DNA of 64,000 nucleotides from Synergistota bacterium. Its GTDB lineage: Bacteria; Synergistota; GBS-1. The notes under the pieces are model-generated. The model had not been told where the DNA came from, did not search any database, and worked only from the letters and a program-made list of their open reading frames with translations. The stretch covers positions 124,001 through 188,000 of the forward strand of contig JANXBX010000004.1 of NCBI GenBank assembly GCA_025060595.1, in the 5' to 3' direction. The translations under genes and the position numbers were made by a program. The stretch's first letter is position 1, and each line of letters opens with the position of its first letter. Of the stretch, positions 17,673-51,464 are shown in pieces.

Positions 17673-17691
17673 AAAAAAACCGTGGTCGTGC
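17673..17691 (-). terminator. T-run terminator at the 3' end of SRP RNA
   Basis: The last 12 bases of the SRP RNA pair with its 5' end and are followed on the minus strand by seven T bases and then ATTC. The RNA's own closing helix plus this U tract should act as the intrinsic terminator. Confidence 0.6.
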
Positions 17692-17960
17692 ACCTACCTT
17701 CGATCAAACCTCTCCAGGACGTTCCTTAAACCTTTGGCTCCAGCCAAGCACCCCCGTGGCACCCAAAGATTACCGCTTACCGTTGCTCCCTTCCGGGCCT
17801 GGCGGGGTTCACGGATCTTTGCCGCACGGGACCCAGCTTTCAACGCCTCCGGCTTAAGGCTGCTCCTAAAGAAGATGACCTCTGGGTAGGAATTCAACCC
17901 CGCTATAGCGGATTGCGGGTTTTTAGGGCACCGCTACCTCCCCATCTAGCACGACCACGG
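17680..17960 (-). ncRNA. ffs: Signal recognition particle RNA, large (Alu-containing) type
   Basis: About 281 bases on the minus strand, from 17960 down to 17680. The two ends are exact 12-base complements (CCGTGGTCGTGC and GCACGACCACGG) closing helix 5. The conserved SRP54-binding hairpin is present: on the RNA strand 'GCCCGGAAGGGAGCAACGG' near 17804-17786, followed by the symmetric loop 'TAAGCGG'. A 5' Alu-like domain precedes it. Seven T bases follow the closing helix (A's at 17673-17679), so transcription should end there. Chance reading frames across this stretch are not genes. Confidence 0.93.
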
Positions 17961-17978
17961 CTACCTCTCAATATATAA

Positions 17979-18070
17979 TGGCGGAGAGGGAGGGATTTGA
18001 ACCCCCGGGGCGGGATCAACCGCCCACTCGCTCTCCAGGCGAGCGCCTTCGACCACTCAGCCACCTCTCC
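17979..18070 (-). tRNA. tRNA-Ser (anticodon GGA)
   Basis: Acceptor GGAGAGG pairs with CCTCTCC. The anticodon loop CTGGAGA sits on stem CTCGC/GCGAG and gives anticodon GGA (codons UCC/UCU). The long variable arm GGGCGG/CCGCCC is typical of class II tRNA-Ser, the T loop is TTCAAAT, and CCA is encoded. Confidence 0.96.
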
Positions 18071-18085
18071 GCATGATCCTTTTAA

Positions 18086-18179
18086 TGGCGGAGAGAGCGA
18101 GATTTGAACTCGCGAGACGGCTCTAACACCGCCTACTCGATTTCGAATCGAGCGCCTTTGACCTCTCGGCCATCTCTCC
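18086..18179 (-). tRNA. tRNA-Ser (anticodon CGA)
   Basis: Class II tRNA with acceptor GGAGAGA, anticodon stem CTCGA/TCGAG and loop TTCGAAA giving anticodon CGA (codon UCG). It has a long variable arm and an encoded CCA at 18086-18088. It lies 15 bases from the neighbouring tRNA-Ser and shares its acceptor core, so the two are probably cotranscribed. Confidence 0.95.
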
Positions 18180-18181
18180 GC

Positions 18182-18643
18182 CTATTTCCTCTTTTTGACA
18201 AAGAAAGACCGCAAAAGTTCCCGACTTTCTTCTGCCAAGACTCCTCCTTCTACCTCTACAAAATGATTAAAGCTATCATGTTGAAGTATATTTATAACGC
18301 TCCCTGCTGCACCAGCACGAGGGTCCGGCAAACCATAAACTAACCTTTTTATTCTTGCTTGAACCATTGCTCCCGCGCACATAGGACACGGTTCAAGAGT
18401 AACATATATAACCAAATCAGTCAAACGCCATGTCCCCAACTTTGATGCTACTTCCTTTATAACTAAAAGCTCTGCATGAGCCAAAGGATCCTGCAATTGC
18501 TCTCTCTTATTATGAGCACGCGCAACCACTTCATCATTTATAATTCCAACCGCCCCTACGGGAACTTCGTCTTCCTCTGCAGCCTTCCTAGCTTCCTCAA
18601 GAGCTATTCTCATAAAAAATTCGTCTTTGTCCAAAACCCTCAT
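18182..18643 (-). CDS. tadA: tRNA adenosine-34 deaminase TadA
   Basis: 153 residues. It shows the cytidine-deaminase-fold zinc site 'DPLAHAELLVIKE' (catalytic His-Ala-Glu, about 55-60) and 'TLEPCPMCAGAMVQARI' (two zinc cysteines, about 87-90), with 'GLPDPRAGAAGSVINIL' after it as in other TadA proteins. It converts wobble A34 to inosine in tRNA-Arg(ACG). That substrate tRNA is encoded directly upstream at 18657-18733 on the same strand, and two tRNA-Ser genes follow directly downstream, so the enzyme gene is embedded in a tRNA transcription unit. Confidence 0.95.
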   Translation of the reverse strand: MRVLDKDEFFMRIALEEARKAAEEDEVPVGAVGIINDEVVARAHNKREQLQDPLAHAELLVIKEVASKLGTWRLTDLVIYVTLEPCPMCAGAMVQARIKRLVYGLPDPRAGAAGSVINILQHDSFNHFVEVEGGVLAEESRELLRSFFVKKRK

Positions 18644-18656
18644 CTTTCAATATAAA

Positions 18657-18733
18657 TGGCGCGCCCGAGAGGACTTGAACCCCCAACCCGTGGATCCGTA
18701 GTCCACAGCTCTATCCAGTTGAGCTACGGGCGC
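18657..18733 (-). tRNA. tRNA-Arg (anticodon ACG)
   Basis: Acceptor GCGCCCG/CGGGCGC, anticodon stem GTGGA/TCCAC with loop CTACGGA giving anticodon ACG, T loop TTCAAGT, and encoded CCA. A34 in this tRNA is the standard TadA substrate, becoming inosine to read CGU, CGC and CGA. Confidence 0.96.
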
Positions 18734-18740
18734 GCTCCTT

Positions 18741-18830
18741 TGGCGGTGAGGGAGGGATTCGAACCCTCGAGAGGGATTACCTCTACTCGCTTAGCAGGCG
18801 AGCGCCTTCGACCTGCTCGGCCACCTCACC
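18741..18830 (-). tRNA. tRNA-Ser (anticodon GCT)
   Basis: Class II tRNA with acceptor GGTGAGG/CCTCACC, anticodon stem CTCGC/GCGAG and loop CTGCTAA giving GCT (codons AGC/AGU). A long variable arm and encoded CCA are present. It is the first gene of the tRNA-Ser/Arg/tadA/Ser/Ser run. Confidence 0.95.
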
Positions 18831-36793: not shown

Positions 36794-36821
36794 GTTAATC
36801 GAAGACGAAAACTATAATAGG

Positions 36822-36925
36822 TTACTCCGTGGGGGAGCTCCTACTAAGGGGCTGAGAGGAGGACGTAAAGTCCTCGACCCCTTGAACCTGATCCGGGTAA
36901 TGCCGGCGGAGGGAAACGGAAGTTA
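36822..36925 (+). promoter_or_regulatory. TPP riboswitch aptamer (THI element)
   Basis: Contains the conserved core 'GGGGCTGAGAGGA' (36848-36860), 'CCTTGAACCTGATCCGGGTA' (36880-36899) and 'AATGCCGGCGGAGGGAAACG', with P1 formed by TCCGT (36826-36830) and ACGGA (36916-36920). It binds thiamine pyrophosphate and controls thi4-thiC directly downstream. Its 3' segment GGCGGAGGGA (36905-36914) can pair with the first arm of the following terminator. Confidence 0.96.
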
Positions 36926-36938
36926 AATCTTAGAAAAA

Positions 36939-36989: not shown

Positions 36990-37742
36990 ATGAGAGACAT
37001 AATCATATCAAAAGCTATTTTAGAGAGTTTTTTTAAGAAGCTTGTAAGTTCCTTAGAGCTGGATGTAGCTATAGTGGGAGCAGGTCCAAGCGGTCTAGTA
37101 GCATCTTATGAACTTGCTAAGAAAAATTTTAAAGTAGCAATATTCGAGGAAAGAAATACACCAGGAGGAGGAATTTGGGGAGGAGGAATAATGTTTAATG
37201 AAGTAGTTTTAGAAAGAGAACTTGAGAGTTTCCTAAAAGAGCTTGACGTAAAATATAAGATTATCGAAGATCATATAGTAGTAGACTCTTGTCATTTTGC
37301 ATCTGCCCTAATATACCATACAACTAAAGCCGGAGCTCTTCTATTTAACAACGTAAGCGTTGAGGACGTAGCTATGAAAGATGGTAAAATCTGCGGAGTA
37401 GTAGTCAACTGGGGACCAGTTAAAAAATTAGGGCTTCATGTAGACCCTATAACTATTAAAGCTTCCTATGTTGTAGATGGAACAGGACACCCAGCAAACG
37501 TTGTATCTCTCCTTGTAAAGCGAGGGCTTATGGAAAAGAAAACCGAATTCCCAATGAACGCAGATGAAGCTGAAAAGTTTGTCGTTGAAAAAACCGGTGA
37601 GGTTTTTCCAGGACTCTTAGTTTCAGGAATGGCTGTGTGTGAAGTCTATGGAGGACCTAGAATGGGACCAATATTTGGAGGTATGATTTTATCCGGAAAG
37701 AGAATAGCAGAAATAATAAGCGAAAGGGTGTCCAGGAAATGA
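36990..37742 (+). CDS. thi4: Thi4-type thiazole synthase (archaeal/sulfide-dependent type)
   Basis: 250 residues. The FAD/NAD Rossmann motif '[20 protein letters not shown]' (about 26-45), '[20 protein letters not shown]' (about 52-71), and '[21 protein letters not shown]' near the end are present. It makes the thiazole precursor of thiamine from NAD and glycine. At the place of the sulfur-donating Cys of yeast Thi4 the sequence reads '[15 protein letters not shown]', with no cysteine, so it should use free sulfide catalytically. Under TPP riboswitch control; start ATG after AAGGAGGGG; overlaps thiC by four bases. Confidence 0.93.
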
Positions 37743-39013
37743 CACAAATGGAAATGGCTAAAAGAGGAATAATATCTGAAGAAATGAAAAGTGTAGCAGA
37801 ATACGAGGAAGTGGACGTAAAATTAGTCTGCCAAAAAGTTGCTCAAGGAAAGGCAGTTATACCCAAAAACAAATTACATAAGGTTGAAAAGCCTATGATA
37901 GTAGGAGAAAATTTTAGCGTTAAGGTAAACGCAAATATAGGAACATCAAAGGGATTCTCATCTCTTGAGGAAGAAAAAGAAAAAGCAAAAATAGCTATTG
38001 AATACGGAGCAGATGCCTTAATGGTTCTTTCAACTTGGGGGAATCTAAGAGAGATTAGGAAAGCTATAGTTGAAATCTCTCCCGTACCAGTAGGCTCAGT
38101 ACCTATTTATGACTCTGCAGTTAAAAGCTATGAACTTAATAAAAATGTAGTGGACTTCTCTGAAAAAGACTTTTTAGACATGGTAATTACTCACGCTGAA
38201 GATGGAATAGACTTTATGACTATACATGTTGGCATTACAAAGAGATTATTGGAGTATATAAAAAAGTCCAAGAGGATCTTGAAAATAGTAAGTAGAGGGG
38301 GAAGCATAATAGCTGGTTGGATGATAAAGAACAACAAAGAAAACCCCTTTTACAAACACTTTGATGAGCTTTTAGATATAGCTAAAGAATATGATATCAC
38401 CCTGAGTTTAGGAGATGGGATGCGTCCAGGAGCAATAGTAGATGCAAGTGACTCTCAACAATTTGAAGAACTTTTCACCCTTGGAGAGCTTGTAGACGAA
38501 GCAAGAAAAAAGGGAGTCCAAGTAATGATAGAAGGACCAGGTCATATACCCCTGAATGAAGTAGAAATGAACGTTAGACTAATGAAAAAAGTTGGGAAAG
38601 AAGCTCCTATCTTTCTTCTTGGTCCTCTTCCAACAGATAGAGCCATGGGTTACGACCATATAGCCTGTGCCATAGGTGGAGCATTAGCTGGATATTTTGG
38701 AGCAGATTTTCTATGCTATGTTACTCCGGCTGAACACATCTCTTTACCAACTGTTGAAGACGTAAAGGAGGGAGTAATAGCCTCAAAGATAGCAGCAACA
38801 ATTGCAGATGTCGCTAGAAGAAATCCAAAAGCATTAGAATTAGAGAGAGAAATGGCCTTAGCGAGAAAACACTTCGACTGGGAAAAGATGTTCAAACTCG
38901 CATTAGCTGGAAACGTAGCAAAAGAAAAACACTTTAAACGTCCTTATGATGACAAGGGATGTTCTATGTGCGGCCCATTTTGTGCTATCAAAATAGCTGA
39001 AGAATACATATGA
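37739..39013 (+). CDS. thiC: Phosphomethylpyrimidine synthase ThiC
   Basis: 424 residues, the shorter form lacking the N-terminal domain of proteobacterial ThiC. Motifs: '[19 protein letters not shown]', '[13 protein letters not shown]', '[17 protein letters not shown]', '[14 protein letters not shown]', and the C-terminal radical SAM cluster '[11 protein letters not shown]' (CxxCxxxxC, about 410-420). It converts aminoimidazole ribotide to HMP phosphate. It is paired with thi4 in a two-gene riboswitch operon; HMP kinase and coupling enzymes (thiD, thiE) must be elsewhere. Confidence 0.96.
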
Positions 39014-39984: not shown

Positions 39985-41400
39985 TTATCTATCACATCTT
40001 TGATCAACCCTTAAGTTTCCCCTTGCAAGAGAAGCCGATATTGCAGCTAAACAAAGTACAGTAAATACTAAAAAAGAAGTCTTCAAGCTTAAAATAAACG
40101 AAAGATATTTATCAGGAGTAATCTGAACTCTACCTATATATATGGAAAATATAAGCATAACTATTCCCATACTAAACATCTGACCAAGAAGACGCATAGT
40201 GGCTACCATTCCTGATGCTACTCCATAAAAGCGCCTTTCAACAGAACCCATTATAGCACTAGTATTGGGGGAGGAAAAAAATGCAAAGCCAAACCCCAGG
40301 ACTATAAGAGATACTATTATATAGTTTATAGCTGTGCCCTCCTTTAAAAAACTAAGCAAAAATACTCCCAAAGCTGTAATCCCCATTCCAAAAGATGCTA
40401 TTATCCTCGGCTCAATTCTGTCAGAAAGCCTACCCGCAATGGGAGAAAAAAGAGCCATCATGAGAGGCTGAAATATAATTATAGAACCAGCAAAACGAGG
40501 ATTTAATCCCTTTATGTATTGCAAATACAAACTTAATAAGAAGGTCACAGCAAAGGTTGCACTATAGTGAATTAAAGCAGCTAGGCTTGAAAAGGCAAAA
40601 ACCCTATTACTTTTAAAAAGGGATATATCAAGTAAAGGATATTTCACTCTACTCTCCCACAGAACAAAAAATATAAAGATTCCACACCCCAAGGCAAGCA
40701 AAGCAAATCCAGAAATATCTGGAACTCGCGAAAAACCACTCATTAAAGATACAATTAAAAAAGCATAAAGCAGGAACCCCATCTTATCGAAGCTCTCATT
40801 CTTAGCTTCAGCCCATTCTCCTTTAACTTTTCTAAAAGCGAGAAAAGCAGATAGTAAGGTTAAAGCGAAACCAATAAAAAATATACTTCTCCATCCAATG
40901 CAATAGGTCAAATACCCTCCAATGAAAGGGCCTAAAGACATACCGGAGTATGTGGAAGCCACATTTATACCTAAAACTTTACCTCTTTCTCTTGAAGGGA
41001 AAACAGAGGTTAAAATCGCTATGTTAGTAGCAAATATCATAGCTCCTCCTATACCTTGTAAAATACGAAAAACTATAAGAAAATATGGATCTTTGGGCGT
41101 ACCACATAGGAAAGAGAAAACAGCATAAAATAAAAGTCCCATTAAAAAAATTTTTCTTCTACCGTATATATCCGCTATTCTACCAAAAGGAACGGTAAAA
41201 ACTGCACAAGATATTATGTAAGCAGTAGCAACCCAGTTTAGTAAAATTGCATCCATTTTAAACTCTCTTCCTATAGTTGGAAGAGCAATATTAATAGAAG
41301 AAACCATAAAGGGAATAATAAAGGAAGTTAAAACAGCAATTAATAAAATAGCTCTCTTATTAACTTGTATTTCCATCGTATATCCACTATTAGAACTCAC
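39985..41400 (-). CDS. MFS transporter, DHA2 (14-helix) family
   Basis: 471 residues and about 13-14 membrane segments. Motif A appears as 'GRIADIYGRRKIFLMG' (about 73-88), motif C as 'GMSLGPFIGGYL', and the A-like repeat in the second half as 'GRLSDRIEPRIIA'. DHA2 proteins are proton-coupled exporters of drugs or metabolites. The start overlaps the stop of the methyltransferase/ATP-grasp gene by four bases, so the two are translationally coupled and this protein probably exports that enzyme's product. Confidence 0.88.
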   Translation of the reverse strand: MSSNSGYTMEIQVNKRAILLIAVLTSFIIPFMVSSINIALPTIGREFKMDAILLNWVATAYIISCAVFTVPFGRIADIYGRRKIFLMGLLFYAVFSFLCGTPKDPYFLIVFRILQGIGGAMIFATNIAILTSVFPSRERGKVLGINVASTYSGMSLGPFIGGYLTYCIGWRSIFFIGFALTLLSAFLAFRKVKGEWAEAKNESFDKMGFLLYAFLIVSLMSGFSRVPDISGFALLALGCGIFIFFVLWESRVKYPLLDISLFKSNRVFAFSSLAALIHYSATFAVTFLLSLYLQYIKGLNPRFAGSIIIFQPLMMALFSPIAGRLSDRIEPRIIASFGMGITALGVFLLSFLKEGTAINYIIVSLIVLGFGFAFFSSPNTSAIMGSVERRFYGVASGMVATMRLLGQMFSMGIVMLIFSIYIGRVQITPDKYLSFILSLKTSFLVFTVLCLAAISASLARGNLRVDQRCDR

Positions 41401-43331
41401 CTTGCTACAATAAGCCCATTCTTTCGCTCACCATTAATAGCACGAATTCCTAAGCGGCGCTCTGCTGCCTCCAATATAGCCCTAAGCATCTCCGAATAAG
41501 AAAATCCTGCTATCTTAGCCATCTTAGCCAAATGTCCATCCCAACACCAACCAGGATTGGGATTTACCTCTAAAAGCTTAGGCACACCCCGAGAGTCAAG
41601 TCTCCAATCAAACCTACAATAATCCCTCGCTTCCAACCTTTCAAAAAGCTTTAAACAACACTCTATTATAAACTTCTCCGTTTCCTCGGGAAGATTGGCA
41701 GGAATAGACCTTATCTTCCAATAAGGGGAGTCAGGCAACCACTTAGCCTCGTATCCACAAATAGGAGGAAGCTCTGGGGGGAGAACGGAATAGTCCTCTT
41801 CAGTGATAGGCAAAACAATATAGTTTCCTGGAACATTTCCTATTATACCTACAGTTAAATCGCTCCCAGTCAAAAACTCCTCTACTAATATAGGCTTATC
41901 ATACCCAAACTTCTCTCTTACATCCAATATAGCGTTTATCAATCCTTCAATATCATTAACCACACTCTTTTGAGTTATACCAAAACTTGAATCACCAAAG
42001 TTAGGCTTAACTATAACTGGAAACCCAAAAGGAATCTCAAAAGATGTATCTTCAGGTTTAACAAGGAAGGCCTCCGGCACAGGAATACCCATCTCCTTGG
42101 CCACACCACGCACAAGAGATTTATCATAGCAATGAGCAAGACACTGAGGGCCAGCACCTGTATATGGTATTTCAAGCATATCTAAAAGAGCCGGAATGTG
42201 AAGCTCTTTTCTTGGGTCGTTATTGAAACCCTCGTCACACAAGTTAAAAACTAAATCAATCTTATTCTTAAGCCTTAATAGATCATAAATTAAGGTATCA
42301 TGATTATCAAGATACACAAAGTTATACTCAGTAAGCTCCCTCAAAGCATCTTTCATTCTGTTAATAGTATATATATCATCATCATCGAAAACACCAAAGG
42401 GCTTTAACGGATCAGCCTTACGAGGATCCCCTAATATAACGGCTACAGTAGCTATCTTCTCCTTCTTTTTCTTCTTAACTGGCGTCCAATCCTTTTTGGC
42501 TACAGCAGTTACTATAATCCTACGTTCCATCATACCTAAGTCCTGATTCCGCTGAGAGACAGATTTAACCTCCCCATGAATAGTTACATCGCTAAAGCCG
42601 GCAGCAGTAAGAAGTTCCTTTAAACTTTCACGTGTATAGAGCCTTTCTGCATAAAATTGATCCGCTATAACACCTTTCTCAACATGGGTTATAACCTCTC
42701 GAGTGATCAAACGTTGCTTATCCCAAGACAATGATCTCTCCCTACAAACAAAGTGCTTTCTATCTATCCATTCCCAAGACCTCGCTTGGAAATTCTCTCG
42801 CAAATACTCACCATCAGCTACGTCTATAAGAATGCGCCCTTGAGGCTTAAGGACCTTAAAAACCTCTTTTAAAACTCTTATATCATCCTGAACCGTTTCA
42901 AAATAGCCAAAGCTATTACCTAATAGCATGACTACATCAAAAGAATCTGCTTGATATGGTAACTTACGAGCATCTCCTTCCCTAAACTTTACATTTAAGC
43001 CCTCCTTCTTAACCCTCGCCTTGGCCTTCTGAATAAGATAGTGTGAGCGATCAAGCCCCTCTACGTTTTTGAATCCTCTCCTCGCCAGCTCAATAGAATG
43101 TCTTCCTTGACCACAGCAAAGGTCTAATATCTTGTCCTCCTTAGAAAGGTTTAAAATGCTTAAAAAGAGGTCCACTTCAGCTTTAGTGATAGCCTTGTCT
43201 TCCACCACATCAGCATCTGTTTTTAAATACATAGAGTTAAATATTCTTCGCCACCAATCAGGATGAACGTGCTCTTCTAAATCCTCAACAGGCCCTAATA
43301 CCTTCCTGTGCCTCTCATGCCTTTTCTCCAT
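41397..43331 (-). CDS. Fusion of a SAM methyltransferase and a D-Ala-D-Ala-ligase-like ATP-grasp enzyme
   Basis: 644 residues. Residues about 1-285 are a class I methyltransferase: 'ILDLCCGQGRHSIELARRG' (about 68-86), 'FREGDARKLPYQADSFDVV', 'GRILIDVADGEY'. A Lys-rich linker 'KKKKKEK' (near 298) leads into an ATP-grasp ligase (about 300-630) with 'LCDEGFNNDPRKELHIPALL', 'PYTGAGPQCLAHCYDKSLVRG', 'FPVIVKPNFGDSSFGI' (P-loop-like), and the metal-binding end 'RFDWRLDSRGVPKLLEVNPNPG'. The ligase half resembles D-alanine--D-alanine ligase, but that enzyme is not normally fused to a methyltransferase. Likely product: a methylated dipeptide-like compound. An MFS exporter gene overlaps its end. Confidence 0.85.
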   Translation of the reverse strand: MEKRHERHRKVLGPVEDLEEHVHPDWWRRIFNSMYLKTDADVVEDKAITKAEVDLFLSILNLSKEDKILDLCCGQGRHSIELARRGFKNVEGLDRSHYLIQKAKARVKKEGLNVKFREGDARKLPYQADSFDVVMLLGNSFGYFETVQDDIRVLKEVFKVLKPQGRILIDVADGEYLRENFQARSWEWIDRKHFVCRERSLSWDKQRLITREVITHVEKGVIADQFYAERLYTRESLKELLTAAGFSDVTIHGEVKSVSQRNQDLGMMERRIIVTAVAKKDWTPVKKKKKEKIATVAVILGDPRKADPLKPFGVFDDDDIYTINRMKDALRELTEYNFVYLDNHDTLIYDLLRLKNKIDLVFNLCDEGFNNDPRKELHIPALLDMLEIPYTGAGPQCLAHCYDKSLVRGVAKEMGIPVPEAFLVKPEDTSFEIPFGFPVIVKPNFGDSSFGITQKSVVNDIEGLINAILDVREKFGYDKPILVEEFLTGSDLTVGIIGNVPGNYIVLPITEEDYSVLPPELPPICGYEAKWLPDSPYWKIRSIPANLPEETEKFIIECCLKLFERLEARDYCRFDWRLDSRGVPKLLEVNPNPGWCWDGHLAKMAKIAGFSYSEMLRAILEAAERRLGIRAINGERKNGLIVAR

Positions 43332-43377: not shown

Positions 43378-44778
43378 TCACACTCCAAGTATTATACTAG
43401 CCACACCAAGATATACCCCTGTACCAATTATATCTGCAAGAGTAGTTATAAGAGGCGTGCTTGCAGAAGCTGGATCCTTCTTAAACTTGACAAATATAAA
43501 GGGTAATAAAACCCCAACAAGACTACCAGCTATAACGTTTATGATCATTGAAGTAACTACAACCAAACATACCTTTAAACTTCCACTCCTAATTATGCCC
43601 ATTACAGAAATTCCCAAACCCATTAATATTCCTAATATACTTGCAATCACAAGTTCTCTTCCAAAAAGATACAACCAGTCTTTTAAACGCACCGTTTCGA
43701 GAGCAAGAGCCCTTATAACAAGCGTAGCCGCTTGCGAACCAGCATTACCTGCGGTATCTACCAAAACTGGGAGAAAGGTGACTAAAACTATATATTTTGC
43801 TATAGTCTCTTCAAACGAGCTTATTATACTACCTGTAACAAAATCCATAACCAGAAGTATGATAAGCCAAGTAAGTCTACTCCTCAATATCTTTTTTATA
43901 GGAGCTTCCTTTATATTTGTCAAAAGCTCTATACTCTCAGGAGGAGCTTCTATAGCAGAATATTTAACAAAATCTTCAGTATGCTCCTCCTGAATAACAT
44001 CTAATAAGTCATCTACAGTAACTATACCTAAAAGGTGCCCCTCTGAATCAGTAACGGGTAAAGCTATTAAGTTATATCTCCTTGCTAACTTTATAGCTTC
44101 CTCCTGATCTTGATCAGCAGTGATAGAAACTACCTCAAAGTCCATTATAGACTCAACAACCTGATTGGGATCTGCTAAAAGCAACTTCCTTATGGGTATA
44201 TCGTCGAGCAAACGCCATCCATCATCTACCACATAAACTATATCTATCGTTTCCGAATCCTTTCCCCACTCTCTAATATGTTCCAAAGCTTTGCTTACCG
44301 TCCAACCCCGTTTAATAGCCACATAATCAGGTGTCATCAACCTACCAACGCTGTTCTCCGGATAACCTAAGAGCTGGAGCGCTTCCCTTCTTTCCTCAGC
44401 AGAGAGAAGATTCAAAAGCCTTCTTAAGAGCCTTGGAGACAAACGTTCAAAAATTCTTGTCCTCTCATCAGGATCAAGCTCGTTAACTATAGACCTAACG
44501 TGTTCATCAGGTAAAGCCTTTAATATATACTCCTGCACGCTTCCATCAAGCTCAAAGAAAACATCTGCTTGAAGATCTGGAGGCAAAAGTCTTAAAGCTA
44601 GAGGTCTATCTTTAGGATCGATCTCCCTAAAAAGCTCCGCAATATCAGGTGCCGACCATGATGATAATATATCCTTGGCTCGTTTCCAATCCCTGTTTTC
44701 AATAGCCTCAATCCCTTCCATTAGCTCTAACTCCCTTTTTTCTATCCCACTATCCTCACTCCTTTCAAAAGCTTCCAC
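43378..44778 (-). CDS. mgtE: Magnesium transporter MgtE
   Basis: 466 residues, full length. An MgtE N-domain of helical repeats (about 25-145; 'ADVFFELDGSVQEYILKALPDEHV') is followed by a CBS pair (about 150-275; 'VGRLMTPDYVAIK', 'LPVTDSEGHLLGIVTVDDLLDVI') and five membrane helices with 'LPVLVDTAGNAGSQAATLVIRAL' (about 335-357). It is a Mg2+-gated channel in the inner membrane, closed when cytoplasmic Mg2+ binds the CBS region. About 46 bases separate it from the fusion gene downstream. Confidence 0.95.
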   Translation of the reverse strand: MEAFERSEDSGIEKRELELMEGIEAIENRDWKRAKDILSSWSAPDIAELFREIDPKDRPLALRLLPPDLQADVFFELDGSVQEYILKALPDEHVRSIVNELDPDERTRIFERLSPRLLRRLLNLLSAEERREALQLLGYPENSVGRLMTPDYVAIKRGWTVSKALEHIREWGKDSETIDIVYVVDDGWRLLDDIPIRKLLLADPNQVVESIMDFEVVSITADQDQEEAIKLARRYNLIALPVTDSEGHLLGIVTVDDLLDVIQEEHTEDFVKYSAIEAPPESIELLTNIKEAPIKKILRSRLTWLIILLVMDFVTGSIISSFEETIAKYIVLVTFLPVLVDTAGNAGSQAATLVIRALALETVRLKDWLYLFGRELVIASILGILMGLGISVMGIIRSGSLKVCLVVVTSMIINVIAGSLVGVLLPFIFVKFKKDPASASTPLITTLADIIGTGVYLGVASIILGV

Positions 44779-44832: not shown

Positions 44833-45258
44833 TTATCCCTTATCTTTCTCAGCGAAAAAGCTTTCTATCCATCTTTTTATATCATCACGAACCTCTCTAA
44901 ACTTATTAATAATCTCCTCTTCGCTCCCAACAGCCTGCGACGGATCTTCGAATCCCTTGTGAATATATTCCTTACCCCCTGGGAAAAATGGACAAGAATC
45001 CCGGGCACTATCACATACGGTTACAACATAATCAAACTCCTCCCCTAAAAACTCCTCTAAACCTTTAGAACGATGATGAGAAATATCTATACCAATTTCA
45101 GCCATGACTTTTATAGCATAAGGATTAACCCTGGATGGTTTAGTTCCAGCACTATAAGCTTCATAAATATCCCCGTAAATAGCATTAAGAAAACCTTCCG
45201 CCATTTGAGACCTGGCAGAATTATGAGTACATACAAATAAAACCCTCTTTTTTGACAT
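44833..45258 (-). CDS. arsC: Arsenate reductase, thioredoxin-coupled (low-Mr phosphatase fold)
   Basis: 141 residues from ATG 45258, eight bases after GGGGGTG. The P-loop 'CTHNSARSQ' begins at Cys10; two more cysteines lie in 'VVTVCDSARDSCPFF', at about residues 80 and 87. Three such cysteines match the thioredoxin-coupled ArsC relay of Gram-positive bacteria. It reduces arsenate to arsenite. No ars operon regulator or arsenite pump is adjacent, so a plain low-Mr protein phosphatase is a less likely alternative. Confidence 0.88.
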   Translation of the reverse strand: MSKKRVLFVCTHNSARSQMAEGFLNAIYGDIYEAYSAGTKPSRVNPYAIKVMAEIGIDISHHRSKGLEEFLGEEFDYVVTVCDSARDSCPFFPGGKEYIHKGFEDPSQAVGSEEEIINKFREVRDDIKRWIESFFAEKDKG

Positions 45259-45278
45259 GCTCATCACCCCCTCTAACC

Positions 45279-50915: not shown

Positions 50916-50991
50916 TGGCTCCGGCGGCAGGACTCGAACCTGCAACCTAGTGGTTAACAGCCACCCGCTCTGCCGGTTGAGCTACGCCGGA
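50916..50991 (-). tRNA. tRNA-Asn (anticodon GTT)
   Basis: Acceptor TCCGGCG/CGCCGGA, anticodon loop CTGTTAA on GGTGG/CCACT giving GTT, T loop TTCGAGT, encoded CCA. Last gene of the six-tRNA array. Confidence 0.95.
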
Positions 50992-51016
50992 GCATCTTAA
51001 TAACGCCTTATTAACT

Positions 51017-51091
51017 TGGAGGCGGCGCCCGGATTTGAACCGGGGTATAAGGGATTTGCAGTCCCCTGCCTTGCCGCTTGGCTACACCGCC
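51017..51091 (-). tRNA. tRNA-Cys (anticodon GCA)
   Basis: Acceptor GGCGGTG/CGCCGCC, anticodon loop CTGCAAA on GGGGA/TCCCT giving GCA, discriminator T, encoded CCA. Confidence 0.95.
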
Positions 51092-51101
51092 ATCAAAATA
51101 A

Positions 51102-51177
51102 TGGAGCGGAAGACGGGACTTGAACCCGCGACCTTCTCCTTGGCAAGGAGACGCTCCACCACCTGAGCTACTTCCGC
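51102..51177 (-). tRNA. tRNA-Gly (anticodon GCC)
   Basis: Acceptor GCGGAAG/CTTCCGC, anticodon loop TTGCCAA on TCTCC/GGAGA giving GCC, T loop TTCAAGT, encoded CCA. Confidence 0.95.
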
Positions 51178-51195
51178 TCATCTATAAACTAATAG

Positions 51196-51271
51196 TGGTG
51201 GCGAGACCTGGAGTCGAACCAGGGACACACGGATTTTCAGTCCGCTGCTCTACCACCTGAGCTATCTCGCC
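51196..51271 (-). tRNA. tRNA-Phe (anticodon GAA)
   Basis: Acceptor GGCGAGA/TCTCGCC, anticodon loop CTGAAAA on GCGGA/TCCGT giving GAA, discriminator A, encoded CCA. Confidence 0.95.
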
Positions 51272-51293
51272 ACTTCTCAAGGATCTTTAATAA

Positions 51294-51371
51294 TGGCGGG
51301 GCTGACGGGACTTGAACCCGCGATCTCCTGTGTGACAGACAGGTGTGTTAACCGGGCTACACCACAGCCCC
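51294..51371 (-). tRNA. tRNA-Asp (anticodon GTC)
   Basis: Acceptor GGGGCTG/CAGCCCC, anticodon loop CTGTCAC on CCTGT/ACAGG giving GTC, discriminator G, encoded CCA. Confidence 0.95.
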
Positions 51372-51389
51372 GCACATTTCAACTCTAAA

Positions 51390-51464
51390 TGGTGGGCGAA
51401 ACAGGGTTCGAACCTGTGACCTCCTGCTTGTAAGGCAGGCGCTCTCCCGCTGAGCTATCCGCCC
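51390..51464 (-). tRNA. tRNA-Val (anticodon TAC)
   Basis: Acceptor GGGCGGA/TTCGCCC, anticodon loop CTTACAA on CCTGC/GCAGG giving TAC, T loop TTCGAAC, discriminator A, encoded CCA. First gene of the array, directly after its promoter. Confidence 0.95.

Follow-up and report, generated by a model that had tools for sequence, protein, structure and literature searches.

A gene on the minus strand of a 64,000-nucleotide stretch of a Synergistota bacterium genome (GenBank assembly GCA_025060595.1, contig JANXBX010000004.1, positions 124,001 to 188,000; the whole stretch is called the window below) codes for a protein of 644 residues, in which a class I S-adenosylmethionine (SAM) methyltransferase is joined via a basic tether to an ATP-grasp ligase resembling D-alanine--D-alanine ligase (Ddl). 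With a probability that we put at about one half, this fusion protein might be a self-sufficient synthase of one N-methylated amide, a previously undescribed metabolite made from common precursors, and might be passed on between hosts as a single gene. As far as can be judged from the sequences, the novelty would lie in a fused and strongly conserved family with an altered ligase pocket, whereas the superfamily of each half is known. An earlier reading of the window made from the letters alone (the sequence-only reading) had proposed a product not yet described. In NCBIfam and Pfam, matches are at the level of domains only, and in the open-access literature no description of the fusion was found (subscription papers lay outside the scope); nor does the available part of a paper on archaeal protein fusions (PMC11237513) mention it.

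Architecture and conservation of the fusion protein

The fusion gene (41397..43331, minus strand) is read from an ATG at 43331 down to 41397 and is defined by its open reading frame (ORF), its translation, Pfam matches and 131 copies. The methyltransferase domain comprises residues ~12-282 (42486..43298, minus strand; delimited by Pfam, alignment and model), the Lys/Arg-rich tether residues ~283-294 (42450..42485, minus strand; delimited by the alignment of the 131 copies and by low model confidence), and the ATP-grasp ligase domain residues ~295-627 (41451..42449, minus strand; delimited by Pfam, fold search and alignments). Both domains match curated Pfam families far over the gathering score, namely Methyltransf_31 (E = 2.9e-23, 62-172) and Dala_Dala_lig_C (E = 1.1e-25, 413-620), where 1 has to be added to the residue numbers since the query began at residue 2. 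Domain order and active sites are kept in 131 distinct full-length copies, the window's own included. The two curated domains and the 131 copies of the same architecture confirm that the fusion is real and beyond chance, and that a methyltransferase and a Ddl-like ligase share one chain, as the sequence-only reading had proposed. The Lys-rich linker of that reading was likewise found, being 10-15 residues long with 40% K and R over the 131 copies. It is poorly modelled, with a predicted local distance difference test score (pLDDT) below 50 at residues 286-290, and the full-length model reaches a pLDDT of 85.7 and a predicted template modelling score (pTM) of 0.55.

Since the catalytic residues are intact, the acyl phosphate ligase and the SAM methyltransferase are both probably active. 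In addition, the identity matrices of the two domains are correlated over the 131 copies (r = 0.81, as compared to at most 0.15 in 200 permutations), and such evolution in step fits joint work of the two halves but also plain linkage. A third domain, considered for a 1022-residue ORF at locus L093, was rejected, as the extra N-terminal part is by eye a low-complexity, GC-rich read-through; a partial repeat of the N-terminus is present at loci L043 and L045.

The ligase domain compared with D-alanine--D-alanine ligase

The model of the ligase domain has the Ddl fold, with Z scores of up to 29.7 over 294-315 residues, and the residues for ATP and Mg2+ are kept almost without exception: K404, K442, K530, R573, D575 and N590 are found in 131 of 131 copies, E484 and E588 in 130, and D491 in 129. 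An Arg is also shared, which in Ddl presumably holds the carboxylate of the second substrate. In contrast to this agreement in fold and ATP site, the Ddl family TIGR01205 is matched with only 117.7 bits by the whole protein and 119.9 bits by the ligase domain alone, that is, with about half of the cut-off of 245.65, and the domain falls below every Ddl cut-off listed in NCBIfam.

The divergence is seen on the substrate side, where alignment with the Ddl-like proteins of loci L039 and L006 and with PDB chains indicates that W531, W597, D598 and H600 are altered, as judged from the roles of the corresponding residues in E. coli DdlB. Trp (W531) stands in 131/131 copies where Ddl has the Tyr of its 'KY' loop, and Gly-His, within a WCWDGH motif, takes the place of the Ser-Leu that ends the NT.PG loop of Ddl, the His being present in 130/131; W531, D598 and H600 are each found in at least 130 of the 131 copies. 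Thus, the fusion family has KW and NPNPGWCWDGH where L006 and L039 have KY and NT.PG. The EHEVS motif is not present either, an acidic DD..T segment standing in its place, and the pair D318/D319 may do the work of the glutamate with which Ddl binds the amino group. Of the two proteins compared, L039 is encoded beside the Atribacteria copy and carries EHEVS, KY and NT.PG, and L006, which also has the usual motifs, is a second Ddl-like protein encoded elsewhere in the window's own genome.

These differences bear on one rival explanation, namely that the ligase is an ordinary D-Ala-D-Ala ligase serving the cell wall, with the methyltransferase as a passenger. Although Ddl is indeed the best match by fold and by family, the scores under all listed cut-offs, the substrate-side residues altered throughout the 131 copies and the separate Ddl-like protein in the window's genome make this explanation most improbable. 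In contrast to Ddl, the domain is joined to a methyltransferase in hosts that can carry a separate Ddl, and the fusion is found in many archaea, which have no murein, so that the host range speaks against a cell-wall dipeptide as the product.

Two further kinds of ligase gene were encountered. On one contig a ligase-only relative (L151:6317-7438; 54% identity) that has kept KW and WCWD lies at a distance of 4 kb from a full copy. Several genomes of the window's phylum carry tandem pairs of Ddl-like ATP-grasp genes with a GNAT gene after them (L105-L110, e.g. L106:4496-8454); a radical-SAM gene, by eye lysine-2,3-aminomutase-like, also follows in L102, L106 and L110, and MFS (major facilitator superfamily) genes are found near the cassette in L105, L106 and L110. 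These ligases are ~30-36% identical to the fusion ligase, have in part NPNP and KW, and lie in part near transporters, but the cassette has two ligases, and an acetyltransferase instead of a fused methyltransferase. It is possibly a second peptide or amide pathway that has so far not been described.

The methyltransferase domain and the proposed product

The model of the methyltransferase domain is of good local confidence (pLDDT 89.5, pTM 0.87), and the SAM motif D70-G74-G76 together with D94 is found in 131/131 copies and D120 in 130/131; Y35, N139-S140, W186, W188, R197, E198 and R199 are further invariant residues. The best solved relative by sequence is NmbA (PDB 9ri2; E = 5.6e-24, residues 34-255), with 65 of 216 aligned residues identical (~30%), and the two are homologous class I SAM methyltransferases over the core and the cap region. 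NmbA, in contrast, is a standalone protein that follows BshABC, has F-S where the fusion has G138-N139, and does not share W186 and W188. According to the paper on this enzyme, NmbA is the bacillithiol N-methyltransferase and methylates the nitrogen of the cysteine moiety, and a complete bacillithiol pathway is stated there not to have been found in any archaea (PMC12719100; deletion data are given in PMC6282198).

BshC (PF10079) was not found in 23 of the 28 carrier genomes searched, the window's included, and was present in the other 5; in a control, 3 of 14 genomes gave matches. BshC is absent from genomes G000, G001 and G003, and a bacillithiol pathway in the window's genome was ruled out on the absence of BshC, the one enzyme out of BshA, BshB and BshC that was searched. 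With BshC lacking from the window's family and from most of the carriers searched, bacillithiol would not be the methyl acceptor in most hosts.

The fold neighbours of the domain include many N-methyltransferases (TylM1, CypM, GSMT, GNMT, DesVI and CcbJ), and Y35 and the LGNSF motif of the fusion appear by eye to be shared with GNMT. The glycine/sarcosine N-methyltransferase family NF051855 matches most of the domain (31-262), but with 62.9 bits as compared to a cut-off of 350. From these nearest relatives, N-methylation appears likely but not certain.

Fold and catalytic residues of the other half argue for amide chemistry. In the proposed synthase, the ATP-grasp domain would phosphorylate an amino-acid-like substrate on its carboxylate, and the acyl phosphate so formed would be joined to an amine, resulting in an amide or in a dipeptide other than D-Ala-D-Ala; the methyltransferase domain would N-methylate a primary amine of this product or of its building block. 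Given the small length of the basic tether, the intermediate may pass from one site to the other. In the window's family the adjoining MFS protein might, in addition, carry the product out of the cell, while in most hosts the product would stay inside or use other carriers; the order of the steps, the hand-over and the intracellular role are all inferred. With ~70% identity between bacterial and archaeal copies over 640 residues, and with active sites that are intact in both halves apart from a few deviations at single residues, the protein must yield something of use without partners. Probably this is a widely shared small molecule, not yet identified.

As to its identity, one could imagine an undescribed N-methylated aminoacyl amide of low molecular weight, which may be a thiol based on cysteine. 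For such a thiol the ATP-grasp domain would take the role of BshC and the methyltransferase would act like NmbA, and the compound would be common to methanogenic and other archaea and to many bacterial phyla owing to single-gene spread. This more specific proposal is an attractive but quite improbable one. According to a review of archaeal thiols, thiols that are new and structurally unique are to be expected (PMC7278568), and the fusion enzyme might make one.

Several observations weigh against the proposed synthase. The orientation of the domains is unsure in the full-length model, as its pTM of 0.55 indicates, and this makes the hand-over a conjecture. In genome G270, a methyltransferase-only relative (53% identity) lies behind two SET-domain genes and the only other ligase-like match is 30% identical, so that the methyltransferase can occur without this ligase. 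Moreover, C- and O-methyltransferases (SeMT, PsmD, SgMT, TleD and RebM) are found among the fold neighbours within ~1-4 Z, which is why N-methylation is not certain. They would suit an enzyme whose two domains work on the same small molecule but whose methyl group goes to O, C or S, e.g. as a methyl ester, and matches at the family level are indeed scattered over UbiE, arsenite and other methyltransferases. However, the best sequence match, covering residues 34-255, is an N-methyltransferase, and the NCBIfam matches that span most of the domain are glycine/sarcosine N-methyltransferase and a daptide methyltransferase, which we take to act on N; methylation of another atom is hence distinctly unlikely.

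Finally, a gene for a PAN-like proteasomal ATPase lies directly downstream of the fusion and co-directional with it at seven loci of one archaeal group (L156, L158, L160, L166, L174, L175 and L179, of which L166 was checked with Pfam). This fits equally well with the main rival to the synthase, in which a peptide or protein would receive an amino acid from the ligase and a methyl cap from the methyltransferase, as a tag or for protection. SET-domain proteins are often protein methyltransferases, and SET-domain genes adjoin both a methyltransferase-only relative (two genes, L152:7939-9642) and one full copy (L172:6635-11008, with an MFS gene beyond); one of the two SET proteins next to the G270 relative is 46% identical to the SET protein of L172. 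Such neighbours provide leads rather than a rule. ATP-grasp enzymes, too, include peptide and protein ligases. However, the adjacency to PAN is restricted to one archaeal group, most bacterial carriers have, to our knowledge, no proteasome, no substrate gene is co-conserved beside 80 loci, and small molecules or short peptides are the substrates of the closest relatives of either half. A modifying enzyme of this kind is therefore unlikely, though it deserves to be taken seriously.

The adjoining exporter, other neighbours and the spread of the gene

Directly downstream of the fusion gene lies a gene for an MFS transporter of the DHA2 type (471 residues, GTG start; 39985..41400, minus strand; identified with Pfam and NCBIfam), as the sequence-only reading had noted. 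The match to MFS_1 is strong (E = 2.3e-68, 231.1 bits as compared to a gathering score of 33.4). The finer assignment to the DHA2 exporters holds in so far as EmrB/DHA2 TIGR00711 is the best NCBIfam match, but with 198.5 bits the protein stays under the family cut-off of 230.2. The overlap between fusion stop and MFS start amounts to 4 nt (GTGA) if the GTG at 41400 is the start, and only then; the alternative ATG at 41376 (codon 9) leaves a 20-nt gap and fits the N-terminus of the L018 relative better, and the junctions of the relatives differ, with a 26-nt gap in L018 and a 38-nt overlap of the longest ORFs in L019. Upstream, the same-strand run comprises an mgtE-type Mg2+ transporter gene (43378..44778, minus strand; TIGR00400, 395 bits, over the cut-off), 46 nt from the fusion, and at its head a gene for a low-molecular-weight phosphatase/arsenate-reductase-like (arsC-like) protein (44833..45267, minus strand; matched by Pfam and NCBIfam, under the arsC cut-offs). 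The two relatives that belong to the window's family, L018 and L019, have the same order arsC-like/mgtE/fusion/MFS.

The family search for the two-domain architecture and its neighbours that the earlier reading had called for recovered the architecture, but rarely an MFS gene close to it. Within three ORFs of the fusion an MFS gene was found in 3 of 78 copies of the genome-wide scan (L018 and L019 of the window's family, and L081), in 3 of 37 copies of a second set (L162, L172 and L173) and in none of the 18 copies of a third set. Sets 1 and 2 overlap in some genomes; L199 and L203, which matched in the genome search but have no copy in the ORF calls, were excluded; and since the counting hidden Markov model was built from only nine MFS proteins, distant MFS genes may be missed. 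Among 40 neighbour proteins scanned with Pfam, 2 matched MFS_1, and a weak match to P0002 is present elsewhere in locus L046. The archaeal MFS proteins of L162, L172 and L173 belong to a different MFS family from the window's (for L172 with a Pfam MFS_1 match). Coupling to an exporter as a rule is ruled out by these counts: it is limited to the window's family and, with MFS proteins of a different family, to three archaeal genomes, and owing to the rarity of MFS genes near the copies, export is not part of the core function.

The sequence-only reading had gone further and proposed that a methylated small peptide, serving as a signal, antibiotic or osmolyte, is produced by the fusion and leaves the cell through the MFS protein. 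The gene order kept in three genomes of the window's family speaks for this, as do the MFS genes of the other family in three archaeal loci, where a further Ddl-like ligase is encoded at L162 and a SET-domain gene separates the fusion from the MFS gene at L172. However, the neighbour counts and the lack of a conserved fusion/MFS junction argue against it, DHA2 proteins are widespread as efflux pumps, and a mixed operon is suggested by the presence of mgtE and the arsC-like gene in the same run. A secreted peptide is accordingly quite improbable: a methylated amino-acid amide is still the best guess, with export as a possibility in the window's family, and nothing found speaks specifically for an antibiotic or signal.

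The fusion enzyme usually stands alone as a gene: in 71 of the 119 copies that have both neighbours in view, neither flank has a co-directional ORF within 100 nt, and across a set of 80 loci no gene family is found repeatedly at a given neighbour position except among close relatives. Single loci have neighbours of their own, which are thin leads to the function. In L060 (5335-7894) a run of the polyamine genes PvlArgDC, deoxyhypusine-synthase-like and arginase-family genes ends 7 nt before the fusion, and in L056 7TM_transglut and ATPgrasp_ST genes lie near it. The AstE/AspA hydrolase family was matched by 2 of the 40 scanned neighbour proteins, and in Desulfonema magnum the ORF after the fusion (L097:9919-10938) is by eye AstE/AspA-type-hydrolase-like.

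With respect to distribution, a pattern and tblastn scan over ~85,000 species genomes gave at least 586 relatives (586 of 589 matched stretches encode one), of which the best 80 were kept and 78 aligned with the window protein (79 rows); these 78 are 68-89% identical to it, with a mean column identity of 68%. The record titles name Planctomycetes, Atribacteria, Aminicenantes, Deltaproteobacteria, Thermotogota, Dehalococcoidia, Zixibacteria and Omnitrophota as well as Jordarchaeia, Methanophagales, Nitrososphaerales and others.

Within the sampled phyla, where each sample contains its own anchor genome, presence is patchy. In the window's phylum 59 of 149 genomes match at E 1e-20, but only 3 matches are full-length, all from the window's family, in which 1 of 4 genomes is without the fusion. 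At 1e-80, matches were found in 8/247 genomes of the phylum of Desulfonema magnum (one methyltransferase-only) and in 33/195 of that of the Jordarchaeum genome (one split over two contigs). At 1e-60, there were 6/246 for the Planctomycetota anchor, 36/246 for the Methanophagales anchor G161 (many on large contigs, five partial or broken), and 2/29 (one partial) and 1/251 (the anchor itself) in two other phyla.

A tree of 94 copies, of which 56 are labelled Bacteria and 17 Archaea, requires six switches from one label to the other, and starred branches force three or more of these, the method being a quick one with support from the Shimodaira-Hasegawa-like approximate likelihood ratio test (SH-aLRT) only. 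Together with the ~70% identity across the domains of life, this points to a spread of the gene by transfer rather than by vertical descent, though bins may be contaminated: L074 (a Nitrosotalea bin) and L059 (a Methanophagales bin) carry nearly the same gene, with end branches of 0.008 and 0.019, which is probably bin contamination.

No relative was found in viral contigs among 53 pattern-matching stretches, and no plasmid record holds 80% of the fusion protein (of 773 partial matches, the ten listed cover the ligase half only). In PADLOC only residues 47-183 match mad2, over 274-406 of its 492 positions, and the protein as a whole does not match. A role in defence was rejected on this partial match and on the viral and plasmid results.

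Elsewhere in the window, a thiamine pyrophosphate (TPP) riboswitch (36821-36932, plus strand; 81.4 bits) precedes genes at 36990-39013 (plus strand) that read as a Thi4-like thiazole synthase and ThiC. Six tRNA genes are clustered at 50919-51464 (minus strand), and a large bacterial signal recognition particle (SRP) RNA lies beside four tRNA genes at 17686-18830 (minus strand).

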